Source: a virus
IMG/VR virus record: IMGVR_UViG_3300034018_003147
Coordinates: 1-20,972 of that record
Length of the DNA: 20,972 nucleotides
Reading direction: 5' to 3' (one strand)
Part shown: positions 6,703-20,972 of the stretch, piece by piece
Layout: the number at the start of each line of letters is the position of its first letter
Position numbering within the stretch: the stretch's first letter is position 1
Position numbers and translations under genes: made by a program
Notes under the pieces: model-generated
Seen by the model: only the letters and a program-made list of their open reading frames with translations
Database searches by the model: none
Told to the model about the DNA's origin: nothing

Positions 6703-7260
6703 TTATTCGCCATTAAGATAATCAAATTCAGATAGAGAAACTTGGCCAGATCGAATGGCCTTTTCTCTGGTTATTTTTTTGCCCATACTTTTTTGACCAT
6801 TCCAAACAATAGCCTTACAGTATGTGGCAAATTTCGTATCTATTTCAAGTTCAGCATTTCTATTTGGTCTTTTACTTTTTGAAATAAATTTTTCAATAAT
6901 TTTATCTAGAATGATTTCTTGCTTCATTCCAAACTTTTGTCTATTAGCACCATGGCGAGTTCTATTTTGCCACAAGTCTTTTAATTTGTTTATAATTTTT
7001 TCTATAAATAAATCGAATTTTTTATCAGAAACGCTATCAAAACACTTCTCAATATAAATTTGTCTTTTGTAATAAGATCCAGCCCTAATAATTGAAAGTT
7101 GCAATTCTTGATTTATATCATCAAAATCATCAGTGTAATTATTTTTGCAATTCTTTTTTTGAAGTTGATGAGCAGCATAATAACAAAGCTTTCCAAAACT
7201 TTTATTTAATTCGTCAAATTCTTTAGATGTGATCGGAAATGACTGACAAATACTTTTCAT
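6703..7260 (-). CDS. Phage protein of unknown function, sigma-factor-like pattern
   Basis: This 185-aa basic protein has no membrane segments. The N-terminal part has a helix followed by DFDDINQEL (45-53) and then SIIRAGSYYKR, which resembles the 'D-x-x-Q-E' helix of sigma-70 region 2. Residues 143-154, KFATYCKAIVWN, resemble the 'F-x-T-Y' segment of sigma factors and of T4 gp55. Between them is a strongly conserved-looking RTRHGANRQKFG block (100-111). I read it as a possible phage transcription factor, but it could equally be another nucleic-acid-binding protein. Translation is coupled to the polymerase gene: the ATG lies one base after that stop. The long stem-loop leader of the helicase gene follows it. 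Confidence 0.35.
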   Translation of the reverse strand: MKSICQSFPITSKEFDELNKSFGKLCYYAAHQLQKKNCKNNYTDDFDDINQELQLSIIRAGSYYKRQIYIEKCFDSVSDKKFDLFIEKIINKLKDLWQNRTRHGANRQKFGMKQEIILDKIIEKFISKSKRPNRNAELEIDTKFATYCKAIVWNGQKSMGKKITREKAIRSGQVSLSEFDYLNGE

Positions 7261-7261
7261 T

Positions 7262-8596
7262 TTATTCTCTTTTGTTAATGTTAATTTTCTTTAGCTCTGA
7301 TAATTTTCTTCCCGCATAACACGAAATATTTAAATTCATATCTGGGAACAAATGACTTTTAGAAAGCAAAACGGATTGTGATTCTAAAATTACATCCTTT
7401 AAATTATCTCTTGTGCTATAAAGCATATAACCATCATGTACATTATAAGCGATTTTAGCTTTACCATTCAAGCTTTTGTATAATTGTATAAGTTTTTCTA
7501 AACAAAATATTGCTGCTGGAGATTGAACTACGAAGTTTCTAGCCTTATATTCTTTTTCTAAAAATATTCTTTTTTTACCAAAAATATCACAAACAGCATG
7601 TTCTTCTTTTGCCTTATTCTGAAATGATTCAATCCATGAGTATGCCACAGAAAATGTACTCTTTACCCTTTCTACTATTGATTCTGCTGCCTTTACTGGG
7701 AGTCCTAAATTTTCAGATATGGCATTTACGCCCATCCCATAAAAAATTGGTAAAAAGAATCGTTTACAAAGATTTCTTTTATCTTCCGAATCGCAAGATG
7801 TTTTTGTTATAAGTTCATATACAGAACTGTACACATCAGAACTTTCACAGACTTTTTGTAGTTCTGGATCTTTAGACAACCATTGAAGTACTTTTACTTC
7901 CATGCTCTTAAAATCAAAGTATAAAAATACTTGATCAAAATCTAATGGCTTAAATTCGAGCTTCTGATCTGGTGTTATGACATGAGGAACATATCCCTTT
8001 GTGTATGCATTAAAACACAACAAACGACCATTTTCTTGACCATTTATCTCATAATACGCATGTAACCTATCTTGATCTAATATCCCAACACATTCCAATG
8101 CTGGTATAACATCTAACATTAGCGGTAAATAAACACTTTTGTAAATGGATTGTAATTGTGGCCATTTCCCAGAATCCAAAACAAATTTAAGCCTTCTTAA
8201 ACATTCGCTAAAATTTTCTGGCTTTTTTTGTCGTAAACCAAAAAATGATTCAATAATCTTCAAATCGATAATTGAACAAAAAAATTCAAATTTTATTTTG
8301 AATCTTCCAAAACAAAAAGAAACAAAATTTTTCCAATTCCAAGTCAATATCTTCTTGTTGCCTGAAAATATAGTTTTTGATGCAGCCCTGTTAAAAAGAT
8401 TCATCATCCATGGATTGGACATAGGAATCTCATAAATGCCCTTTTTAGACGATATTACCAACCTATAGGCATCTTGCTTGCTTTTGTCGGTAAAGTCCAA
8501 AATATCATCATTGTAGGAGATGTATAATGTGCTTTCGGATTCTAGATCAGAAAACATTTCCATAAGCTGCATATAATTTGAAATAGTTTTAGACAT
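7262..8596 (-). CDS. Family A DNA polymerase, compact, degenerate exonuclease region
   Basis: This 444-aa DNA polymerase of the Pol I family probably replicates the phage genome. Motif A is YFDFKSMEVKVLQ (226-238, catalytic Asp228). Motif B (O helix) has Arg274, Lys278, then Tyr286-Gly287. Motif C is VHDG (386-389, catalytic Asp388). Two positions are notable: Leu282 aligns with Phe762 of E. coli Pol I, and Gly389 replaces the usual Glu of HDE. Residues 20-140 look like a remnant 3'-5' exonuclease fold, but the D-x-E of ExoI and the later acidic residues are not visible. It is far shorter than T7 gp5 (704 aa). ATG at 8596 is preferred over the in-frame TTG at 8635, which would add only a short hydrophobic leader. 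It heads the long minus-strand operon. Confidence 0.9.
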   Translation of the reverse strand: MSKTISNYMQLMEMFSDLESESTLYISYNDDILDFTDKSKQDAYRLVISSKKGIYEIPMSNPWMMNLFNRAASKTIFSGNKKILTWNWKNFVSFCFGRFKIKFEFFCSIIDLKIIESFFGLRQKKPENFSECLRRLKFVLDSGKWPQLQSIYKSVYLPLMLDVIPALECVGILDQDRLHAYYEINGQENGRLLCFNAYTKGYVPHVITPDQKLEFKPLDFDQVFLYFDFKSMEVKVLQWLSKDPELQKVCESSDVYSSVYELITKTSCDSEDKRNLCKRFFLPIFYGMGVNAISENLGLPVKAAESIVERVKSTFSVAYSWIESFQNKAKEEHAVCDIFGKKRIFLEKEYKARNFVVQSPAAIFCLEKLIQLYKSLNGKAKIAYNVHDGYMLYSTRDNLKDVILESQSVLLSKSHLFPDMNLNISCYAGRKLSELKKININKRE

Positions 8597-8603
8597 AAGC
8601 TCA

Positions 8604-8632
8604 AATATACAAAATCCAATAGCAAATTGCAA
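8604..8632 (-). promoter_or_regulatory. Candidate promoter of the polymerase operon
   Basis: On the minus strand TTGCAA and TATATT are separated by 17 bases, ending seven bases before the polymerase ATG, which would make the message nearly leaderless. The same place reads TATATTTG, matching the TAnnTTTG element of Bacteroidetes promoters. This is weak evidence on host type, from one site only. Confidence 0.35.
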
Positions 8633-8642
8633 CAAATATAAT

Positions 8643-8671
8643 TTGAGACAAATTTTATCTTAAATTACATT
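8643..8671 (+). promoter_or_regulatory. Candidate promoter of the intergenic RNA
   Basis: TTGAGA (8643-8648), a 17-base spacer and TACATT (8666-8671) fit a sigma-70 promoter (five of six and four of six consensus bases). Transcription would start near 8678, immediately before the first arm of the long-range helix of the candidate ncRNA. Confidence 0.4.
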
Positions 8672-8677
8672 AAACCG

Positions 8678-9037
8678 AGTGCCGACTTAGCTTTGTTTAT
8701 TGTTATATATAAAGATTATTGTGTAATAAGCTTATTATATATAATTGAATAAGATATTCTGTGTTTAAACATAACTTCCCTCATTCAATCCAATAAAAAA
8801 GTAAGTTAAACCCTTAAACTACAATGTTTAAAGATTCAATTTACAAAATCAATTAGTATCAATTTATGTTTTAAAACTCTTAGTTAGTCTATTCCCTTGT
8901 CTGCAAGAATAGAAGTCGGCTATTTATTTCTAATCTAAGGCTTACTTAACATTCGGGTGTAACAATGGTTCTCGTTGCACCATTCGTGATTTTTCACTAC
9001 AAAGACTTACCCGCTATGGGCCACCCAAGTTTTTTTT
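8678..9037 (+). ncRNA. Candidate structured non-coding RNA, about 360 nt (possibly to 9110)
   Basis: This is part of a 622-base stretch without a gene, between divergent operons. Several complementary segments nest without conflict. GCCGACTT (8681-8688) pairs with AAGTCGGC (8913-8920). TTATATATAA (8703-8712) pairs with 8735-8744 and encloses TTATT-GTGT-AATAA (8716-8729). TTAAAC-TACAAT-GTTTAA lies at 8814-8831. CTATT..CTTG-TCTG-CAAG-AATAG (8889-8912) abuts the long-range helix. GGTGTAAC (8956-8963) pairs with GTTGCACC (8974-8981), and GTGA-TTTT-TCAC is at 8986-8997. The T-G pair 8960/8977 is allowed only in a plus-strand RNA, which sets the direction. A promoter lies just upstream and T-tracts follow hairpins at 9037 and 9110. 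GC content is locally higher at 8940-9030. No tRNA, tmRNA or RNase P signature was recognised. Confidence 0.5.
9017..9037 (+). terminator. Terminator-like hairpin with T8 tract
   Basis: TGGG-CCA-CCCA (9017-9027) is followed by AAG-type sequence and eight T (9030-9037). The upstream CCC at 9010-9012 can also pair with GGG 9018-9020. It is a plausible first 3' end of the candidate ncRNA. Confidence 0.4.
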
Positions 9038-9081
9038 CCAATATCTCTTAGTTGGGATACTTTCATACTAAGATTTAGAGG

Positions 9082-9110
9082 GGAAGAGAAAGCTTCCATC
9101 TTCGTTTTTT
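9082..9110 (+). terminator. Second terminator-like hairpin
   Basis: GGAAG (9082-9086) pairs with CTTCC (9093-9097), or alternatively GAAGA (9083-9087) with TCTTC (9099-9103), followed by G and six T (9105-9110). A further hairpin TCTTAGT/ACTAAGA (9046-9052/9067-9073) precedes it. It could be a second 3' end of the candidate ncRNA. Positions 9111-9218 hold only AT-rich leader sequence of the next gene. Confidence 0.35.
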
Positions 9111-9218
9111 ATAGTTCTGTAACAAGTTGTAGATAATATAACATGAATTGATTAAAAAAACAAATATATTATGTTTAAATAACATGATCTCTTGTGAATA
9201 AAAGGAAAATAAGCTAAA

Positions 9219-9920
9219 ATGATCAATCATGAGGATGTTGAAAAAATGATTGAAAAATACAAAATGGACAACTTAGAATCATTGGCATTTAAGGTCTGTT
9301 TGATATGGATTGAAAAAAGTAGAAAAATATTTCCAAATTATAATCACATAAATCTTCGAAAAGGAGATCCTAGAAAATCTTTAATATTTAAGGTTTGTTA
9401 TAAGCTTGTAAGAGAGACACAAGGACTTTTGGATGAATTTAATCATGGTTTGTATGTTCAGTCTCAATTAGATATTCTCAGACACATAAATATGGGAAAA
9501 GGACATCCTCTCGTAGATGTCAATTGTCTTGTTGGTGATAAAGCTTGGAAACGATGGAAATTATGGAAGAAAAAATATGACACCGTATCTCAACTCAAAA
9601 CAAAAATGCCTGAAGTTAAAATTTATAACGCCAAAATCTATGAAGCTATTAAAAAAACTAAAGAATTCATTGATAAGTCCATCGGAGTATGCCCAACAAT
9701 TGAGCAGTACAGAGCCTACGAATCAAGCAAACAGTTATACAGATGGATTAACTTTGGAAAAATATCACCCTATTATCTTATCTTGTCTCCATATATTGAA
9801 AAAATTATAAACAAAGATGATTTGAAAAAGTTAAACTTCGATCTGAACATTTACAAACAAGGTATTGATGAGGATGTGGTGGAATTTTTTAAAAAACAAT
9901 TTGAATACGAATTCAAGTGA
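9219..9920 (+). CDS. Phage protein of unknown function
   Basis: This 233-aa, Lys-rich and probably helical protein lacks signal peptide or membrane helices. I do not recognise a named domain, though stretches such as FPNYNHINLRKGDPRKSLIF (38-57) and DVNCLVGDKAWKRWKLWKKK (99-118) look like conserved blocks rather than random sequence. The second is very basic and tryptophan-rich and could contact nucleic acid. A GGA-containing site lies about 12 bases before the ATG. It is the first protein gene downstream of the candidate ncRNA and is followed after one base by the DUF3431-like gene, so the two are co-transcribed. Confidence 0.7.
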   Translation: MINHEDVEKMIEKYKMDNLESLAFKVCLIWIEKSRKIFPNYNHINLRKGDPRKSLIFKVCYKLVRETQGLLDEFNHGLYVQSQLDILRHINMGKGHPLVDVNCLVGDKAWKRWKLWKKKYDTVSQLKTKMPEVKIYNAKIYEAIKKTKEFIDKSIGVCPTIEQYRAYESSKQLYRWINFGKISPYYLILSPYIEKIINKDDLKKLNFDLNIYKQGIDEDVVEFFKKQFEYEFK

Positions 9921-10613: not shown

Positions 10614-11444
10614 TTATTTTTTTTCGTTAATCAATATCATTCCATAATTATTTATTCCATCTGGTATTATCAAACCTTCTTTTTTTATTAGTTTATTATT
10701 TTTAAAAGGCTTGTAATTAACTTGATGGTGCCATCTGCCAAATTTCCAAGTTACCTTTGCAACATCTGGATGCTGATCTACTAACGATTGTGCAAATTCT
10801 TTTCTGTTATCTGTTTCTTTATAAATTTCATTTGTATTTCCTCCTTTCATTCTCATTGTTGTAACTTTTCCTGCGAGAAAAGCATTAAACAATATCGTAC
10901 AATAGCCATCTTTTAAAGCCCTTAAACTTAAATCTGTGTCCTCGTTATATCTACCTCTCCACCTATAAGGCAAATCATTTTTAAGCAGTATACAAGAGTA
11001 AATTCTTGTGTTTAGATAGTATGGTGGCACTTTGTCTGTGGTTTTACAAAATGAATAATAGTTAAATCCACTTATCGCCACATTCTCATATCTGTCTGTA
11101 AAATCTTCCGCACATTTAAAAACTGTTCCCGATGAAACTACTGGCTTTGCATTTCTATTTAATCTGTGAAAACCTTCTATATTATCATCTAAAATCCAAT
11201 GTCTTTCATGTCCTTCCGCAATAGAATGTTCCCATACCCAATTTCTTGCAGGTATAGATCCTTGACCCAAATTACTAAATGGAAGTAAAAGGATGTTTTT
11301 TGTAATGTGTTTATAATCATTTATTTCTTGTGGCTCAATCACTAATTGAAAAGGAACATTAATCTTCAAAAGCTCTCTTGCCGTTAAACAAGATTTACCT
11401 CTACCTTTTGATATAATGTAAAATGGATATTTGGGATTATTCAT
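10614..11444 (-). CDS. TET-associated-type glycosyltransferase (TAGT family)
   Basis: This 276-aa GT-A-fold glycosyltransferase resembles the TAGT family described beside TET/JBP dioxygenases, where it is proposed to glycosylate oxidised DNA bases. Signature blocks are FYIISKGRGKSCLTARELL (8-26), VIEPQE (35-40), LLLPFSNLGQGSIPARNWVW (52-71), the nucleotide-sugar or metal motif WILDDN (83-88), and NEDTDLSLR (167-175). No TET/JBP gene is visible within this window. A GGGAGA site precedes the ATG, which overlaps the stop of the upstream methyltransferase by eight bases, so the two are translationally coupled. Substrate could be DNA or protein; DNA is favoured only by family precedent. Confidence 0.8.
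   Translation of the reverse strand: MNNPKYPFYIISKGRGKSCLTARELLKINVPFQLVIEPQEINDYKHITKNILLLPFSNLGQGSIPARNWVWEHSIAEGHERHWILDDNIEGFHRLNRNAKPVVSSGTVFKCAEDFTDRYENVAISGFNYYSFCKTTDKVPPYYLNTRIYSCILLKNDLPYRWRGRYNEDTDLSLRALKDGYCTILFNAFLAGKVTTMRMKGGNTNEIYKETDNRKEFAQSLVDQHPDVAKVTWKFGRWHHQVNYKPFKNNKLIKKEGLIIPDGINNYGMILINEKK

Positions 11445-17684: not shown

Positions 17685-20972
<3,288 letters not shown>

Follow-up and report, generated by a model that had tools for sequence, protein, structure and literature searches.

The 622-base gap between the DNA polymerase gene polA and its divergent neighbour in the viral DNA analysed here (20,972 bases in all, hereafter the window) holds a structured RNA element of about 450 nt (8675-9126, minus strand favoured), which extends from a clamp element on the polA side to a tail on the far side and is conserved in relatives. 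Judged by comparison of related sequences, in which compensatory changes go beyond chance and common descent, the element is a conserved structured RNA; this comparative evidence is decisive. The window alone is too weak to settle the question; its single-sequence fold is only moderately better than shuffles, and its promoter-like pairs are at chance. The initial annotation had proposed an undescribed structured phage RNA at this place, and the proposal holds: homologues occur across a phage family, several helices covary, as does a pseudoknot, and no Rfam family matches. The large, multiply pseudoknotted RNA, read in the sense of polA, is taken here as most likely the 5' leader of the polymerase mRNA, where it would gate polA expression, a reading to which we assign about an even chance.

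Gene setting

The polA gene (7262-8596, minus strand) encodes a family A DNA polymerase (Pfam DNA_pol_A, E 1.8e-21). The gap extends from its ATG (8594-8596, minus strand) to the divergent neighbour gene (9219-9920, plus strand, 233 aa). The early description of these 622 bases as free of genes is borne out, bar a possible TTG-started version of polA that would extend to 8635; the sole ORF of at least 50 aa starting or ending in the gap (ATG, GTG or TTG starts) is one of 51 aa on the minus strand (9075-9230), and the longest stop-free stretch within 8636-9218 is 48 codons. A DnaB-like helicase operon lies near the element, as does polA. Directly after polA stands a 185-aa gene without clear family (6703-7260, minus strand), and a similar ORF follows polA in LR756511.1 (L125 2916-3482), a 595-kb uncultured phage. 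Elsewhere in the window, a TET-associated glycosyltransferase gene (10614-11444, minus strand; Pfam TAGT, E 9.2e-44) suggests that the phage DNA may carry glycosylated modified bases, and a very long ORF of collagen-like Gly-X-Y repeats (18214-20970, plus strand, 919 aa) runs off the end of the window, its own end missing.

The protein of the 9219 gene has an all-helical predicted fold (mean pLDDT 84, pTM 0.49) without fold or family match; Pfam, PHROG and PDB gave no significant match, and a weak NCBIfam match is far under its cut-off. It stays adjacent to polA down to 32-39% identity. As a partner of the RNA it was considered and set aside: it lacks a fold or family match and is retained in LR756511.1, where no RNA is recognised, so no partner claim is made.

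Conserved core and clamp

The core of the element is a four-way junction; its helices and those described further below are given in window coordinates and are assigned, like the element, to the minus strand. Helix Pa (8955-8959 with 9022-9026) closes the junction and shows double changes in four of its five pairs across 20 lineages. Within it are hairpin Pb (8964-8969 with 8979-8984; double changes in four of six pairs, 94.9% of cells paired), the small hairpin Pc (8986-8988 with 8995-8997; both tested pairs double-changed, a gap in 4 of 20 rows) and hairpin Pd (9010-9012 with 9018-9020; both tested pairs double-changed). The junction strand at 8996-9011 (plus-strand letters ACTACAAAGACTTACC) is near-invariant outside the L100-type clade. 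On the 20 lineages, 95.5% of the core's pair cells are paired, against 29-44% when slid, and 57 cells carry double changes, against at most 16 in controls. In a tree-preserving test, whose null is our own in the spirit of R-scape, three Pa pairs rank 1 to 3 among 3160 core column pairs (E below 1/200, 0.02 and 0.08); the fourth-ranked pair (E 1.4) lies outside the named helices. Covariation in homologous regions, to which the initial annotation had pointed as a check, is thus present, with the three Pa pairs at the top.

The clamp is a pseudoknot in which the polA-side end of the RNA (8676-8679, CGAG) pairs with the loop of Pb (8971-8974, CTCG). The pairing is conserved and perfect in 20 of 20 lineages, against 0 of 248 for mixed combinations, a count that was not blind because the expression locating the element was written after the alignments had been viewed. 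It occurs in three letter sets, namely CGAG/CTCG, CGGG/CCCG and CAAG/CTTG. The initial annotation had read AATGGT (8964-8969) and ACCATT (8979-8984) as the competing pairing of a possible two-state switch; this pairing is the conserved helix Pb itself, and the other state is not conserved. In relatives the helix changes to AATGC/GCATT, AATAC/GTATT and AACACC/GGTGTT.

Outer helices and full-length fold

Helix P1 (8681-8688 with 8913-8920), the 8-bp long-range helix noticed at the outset, exists and is conserved, with 89.1% of cells paired. In the window clade it is without double change, its inner 6 bp being kept with one broken cell; other clades have GCTGAC/GTCAGC, GCAGA/TCTGC and CCCGA/TCGGG (arms hand-read). 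The local hairpin said to abut its second arm, Pg (8889-8894 with 8907-8912), exists too; two of its six pairs show double changes, but in the window clade alignment no more than 60.5% of cells are paired. Helix Pf (8878-8887 with 8931-8940, without 8880) shows double changes in five of nine pairs and 94.4% of cells paired, and the long-range helix Pe (8855-8860 with 9056-9061) shows double changes in three of six pairs in the window clade, its arms having been hand-read in 20 lineages. A tentative loop-tail pairing joins 8896-8900 (CTTGT) with 9122-9126 (ACAAG); 87.5% of its cells pair, no double change is seen in the window clade, and other clades show other letters by eye.

A compact pseudoknot spans 9082-9102. 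Its stem (9082-9086 with 9093-9097) has double changes in three of five pairs and holds the best pair of the full-length covariation test; its loop (9090-9092) pairs with 9100-9102 as AAG/CTT, GAG/CTC or GGG/CCC (hand-read), invariantly within the window clade. The pseudoknot was not found in the L080 clade. A conserved upstream ORF was rejected, the ATG in the compact pseudoknot being missing from several lineages (by eye). Between clades, the arms of P1, Pe, the loop-tail contact and the compact pseudoknot were identified by eye.

For nine sequences of the window clade RNAalifold predicted 53 pairs, of which 20 show compensatory changes. In this clade the 11 named helices have 92.3% of their cells paired (31-49% when slid) and double changes in 19 of 59 pairs; further pair types are no more numerous than in shuffles. 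The full-length covariation test, in which two helix pairs reach E 0.0 and 0.083 and the remaining pairs have E >1, is underpowered because the clades misalign, and the core test was run instead. The window sequence folds better than shuffled sequence, the other check named at the outset, but only moderately so (plus z -2.37 for 8640-9110), and the case is decided by the comparative evidence; for 8672-9130 the values are plus z -1.52 and minus z -2.66. Just beyond the far end, L100, L088, L076, L123 and L124 have a short extra hairpin of varying letters (e.g., CACC/GGTG, GTTGATC/GATCAAC), mostly between a TATATT-like box and the tail (by eye).

Distribution in relatives

A PolA protein search yielded 25 loci and a PolA alignment search 56, many of them near-identical. 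In relatives whose PolA shares 46-53% identity, the gap DNA retains 69-76% over the principal alignments, 175-499 nt long, and the RNA is still recognisable where the adjacent DNA polymerase is down to about 40% identity. The core profile recognises the element in 44 of the 56 PolA loci; of the 12 loci missed, two (L051 and L086) offer hardly any or no sequence ahead of polA, and the other ten are deep lineages (L070-L073, L095 and L099; L091; L094; L097 and L098). A search with the 9219 protein (80 loci kept) added the lineages L150, L164, L168 and L185 and, weakly, L160 (E 0.032) and L198 (23.2 bits). Of 15 whole records searched with the core covariance model, 10 contain one strong match each (E at most 6.5e-11); those of L072, L091, L094, L098 and LR756511.1 give weak matches or none, the last with 17.1 and 14.6 bits. 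A supposed second copy in the L100 record (27.6 bits) overlies ORFs, cannot be aligned to the RNA and was discarded. In LR756511.1, a 387-aa ORF (L125 4816-5979, minus strand) fills the RNA's place between polA and the 9219 homologue. The PolA scan of cellular genome contigs found no relative.

The family may extend beyond the reach of the profiles, because L094 has the same polA-side element and a single matching CTCG within a hairpin-like context. L072 and L073, two contigs of one clade, share a conserved stretch about 790 nt before polA that the RNA model does not recognise; polA-sense folds of the clade have low z (-6.67 and -5.54), and the stretch may be a diverged or a different RNA at the same place.

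The element lies directly before polA, with sharp conservation edges on both sides. Two RNA patterns that ignore polA match 42 contigs (37 + 5), and all 42 carry polA adjacent; these patterns were designed on polA-found homologues, and adjacency was matched by contig name. In loci with a recognised RNA, the distance towards the 9219 gene ranges from about 0.6 to 2.3 kb. ORFs can intervene there, mostly in polA sense by mechanical ORF calls, which also place a plus-strand ORF between the two in L089 and likewise in L072 and L073, both of which lack a recognised RNA. A role as leader of the 9219 gene was rejected for loci in which long minus-strand ORFs intervene, e.g., L066, L078, L080, L082 and L096. 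The RNA holds one fixed place, beside polA, in a phage family with contigs of up to 381 kb, and is without Rfam match.

Expression signals and proposed function

Signals for transcription were sought by scan and by eye. The pair TTGAGA-17-TACATT, put forward at first as a promoter, is not above chance: 7 promoter-like pairs occur in 8560-9300, against 4.9 +/- 2.0 in shuffles. The T-tract ends claimed for the RNA fared no better, as a single terminator-like site is present (9082-9097; 0.3 expected) and its T-run is not kept in relatives. A weak candidate for a -10 box in polA sense, TATATT, was seen by eye just beyond the far end (9135-9140, minus strand); L010 and L016 have TATAAT at this position, and the consensus scan does not list the window box.

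Between the RNA and polA there is no terminator-like site in 15 of 15 properly covered lineages (the 16th, L008, being truncated by a mischosen start), and the element ends 46-161 nt before the polA start in 15 lineages (starts chosen mechanically). That the RNA adjoins polA with no terminator-like site between them fits a 5' leader of polA. The leader would be transcribed in polA sense as the 5' part of the phage DNA polymerase mRNA. Its polA-side end would dock into the hairpin loop of the four-way junction, forming the clamp; binding of a small ligand or of a protein, conceivably the polymerase, would stabilise or open the fold, and the state of the fold would set the amount of the polymerase operon made. 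Action in cis, movement of the clamp and a sensed trigger are what we infer from this arrangement. Linkage to polA is weak evidence for cis action because gene order is generally conserved and the 9219 gene adjoins polA too. A promoter-like pair also intervenes between the RNA and polA (8632-8604, minus strand; TTGACC-17-TATAAC in L080, by eye), which could allow transcription of polA separately from the RNA. More speculatively, and with rather less confidence than in a leader as such, the element could be the founding member of a new class of RNA regulators, in which the leader senses the replication state through the clamp and meters replisome production; candidates for what is sensed are a nucleotide, the free DNA polymerase or some other replication protein.

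The main rival, clearly the less probable of the two though a serious one, is a free-standing RNA in polA sense that would end or be processed before polA and act in trans, as a machine or scaffold like GOLLD, ROOL or 6S RNA; adjacency to polA would then reflect only conserved gene order. The size and the pseudoknots suit such an RNA, as do the sharp edges of conservation, and a separate transcript would be compatible with the promoter-like pairs that lie between the RNA and polA. It is opposed by the lack of a terminator-like site from RNA to polA in the 15 lineages, and by copy number and place: 10 of 15 records have a single strong copy, and none was found away from polA.

The leader reading can be put to a direct functional test, to which the adjacency of polA points, and the three natural letter sets of the clamp are ready compensatory mutants. 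To our knowledge, bacteria and phages have yielded few classes of large structured RNA, most of them without assigned function.

Strand of the RNA

The RNA is quite probably the minus strand, polA's own sense, an assignment that is supported but unproven: the strand shared with polA directly downstream is favoured by several measures, though some signs are contrary. Consensus and mean energies are lower on the minus strand in 5 of 5 alignments (not composition-corrected), and folding z is lower there in 20 of 23 homologues (mean -4.17 vs -3.05), against only 13 of 23 further loci, mostly without a recognised RNA. Wobble positions were counted on structures predicted without G-U pairs, thus favouring neither strand; in eight disjoint clade sets, 38 are minus-only and 17 plus-only, in cells that share ancestry and are not independent. 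The excess comes from the L080 clade (17 to 6) and the L100 clade (11 to 2), while the window clade has 2 to 2, the L150-type set 5 to 3, the L072 clade 3 to 4, and three two-member sets no wobbles of either kind. In an earlier run the L080 clade stood at 24 to 5 and the L100 clade at 9 to 3. Stems with one wobble number 59 on minus and 38 on plus, against 36 and 31 in shuffled sequence.

The plus-strand transcription favoured by the initial annotation, which amounts to a free-standing RNA divergent from polA, is accordingly at odds with the energies, z-scores, wobble positions and one-wobble stems, and is an improbable reading. It gains from a plus-drawn structure, in which G-U exceeds A-C by 8 to 6 and 16 to 9, a slight plus lean (eight of the 16 G-U cells are one invariant column pair), and from GNNA-like loops on the plus strand in some lineages (by eye). 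By eye, a plus-sense TACAAT-like box also stands before the element, near its polA-side end, in seven relatives (L066, L074, L078, L079, L080, L089 and L096), at a near-fixed distance from the conserved CGGG; a minus-strand RNA would leave this box without explanation. The U-G pair at 8960/8977, first cited for the plus strand, loses its force, its helix being absent from the relatives compared.

An element acting at the DNA level, for instance a replication origin beside the polymerase gene whose single strands can fold, is very unlikely. The position beside polA and the DnaB-like helicase operon would suit it, but the one-strand wobble bias is expected of RNA, and the fold greatly exceeds a simple cruciform in complexity.

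Comparison with known RNAs

Rfam 15, searched on both strands and including the GOLLD and ROOL models, gave no family at gathering score in the window and five related loci. None of 4227 families reached E <=1 on either strand in seven loci with diverse homologues, and four matches at E up to 10 are all far under gathering scores. ARAGORN found no tRNA or tmRNA in the window, and blastn against phages and against plasmids gave no match at the gap. The early view that this is not tmRNA, RNase P RNA, a tRNA or a group I intron agrees with the blank results of the Rfam models and, for tRNA and tmRNA, of ARAGORN. In the literature covered (titles and abstract openings, exclusive of bioRxiv and most subscription journals), no such RNA is named. 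By these searches the element is a new RNA family, outside Rfam 15, of a known general kind. Known RNAs do occur in rearranged forms (PMC10085705), but a strongly derived RNase P RNA, tmRNA or riboswitch class is the least credible reading of all, given the Rfam result on 4227 families and the blank ARAGORN scan of the window.

The preferred reading, a leader of polA, has likenesses among both large phage RNAs and leaders. GOLLD and ROOL often lie near tRNA islands, whereas the present element, of about 450 nt, adjoins polA, and the window, the only stretch scanned, has no tRNA genes. They are large, pseudoknotted RNAs of phages and bacteria and of unknown function, ROOL env-120 having 659 nt and many GOLLD more than 800 nt, as stated in PMC12286853; the ornate style is thus shared. 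Kinship is not supported, as their Rfam models fail and setting and length differ.

With riboswitches and the 5' leaders of Rfam the element shares a conserved junction, a near-invariant strand and a place upstream of one gene, a likeness that is functional only if the strand and cis readings hold; it differs in having no Rfam match, and no ligand, terminator or start-site switch was found. In the gene 43 operator of T4 and RB69, as here, an RNA stands upstream of a phage DNA polymerase gene, and autogenous control is possible. According to PMC3014915, T4 gp43 represses its own mRNA through an upstream hairpin; the operator combines this hairpin, 18 bases long and about 40 bases upstream of the start, with sequence that covers the ribosome binding site, and there is no evidence that it forms a pseudoknot. 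The present RNA, in contrast, is about 450 nt long, precedes a family A polymerase and stops some tens of bases short of the apparent start. T4 gp43 is a precedent in kind, not in size, shape or polymerase family.
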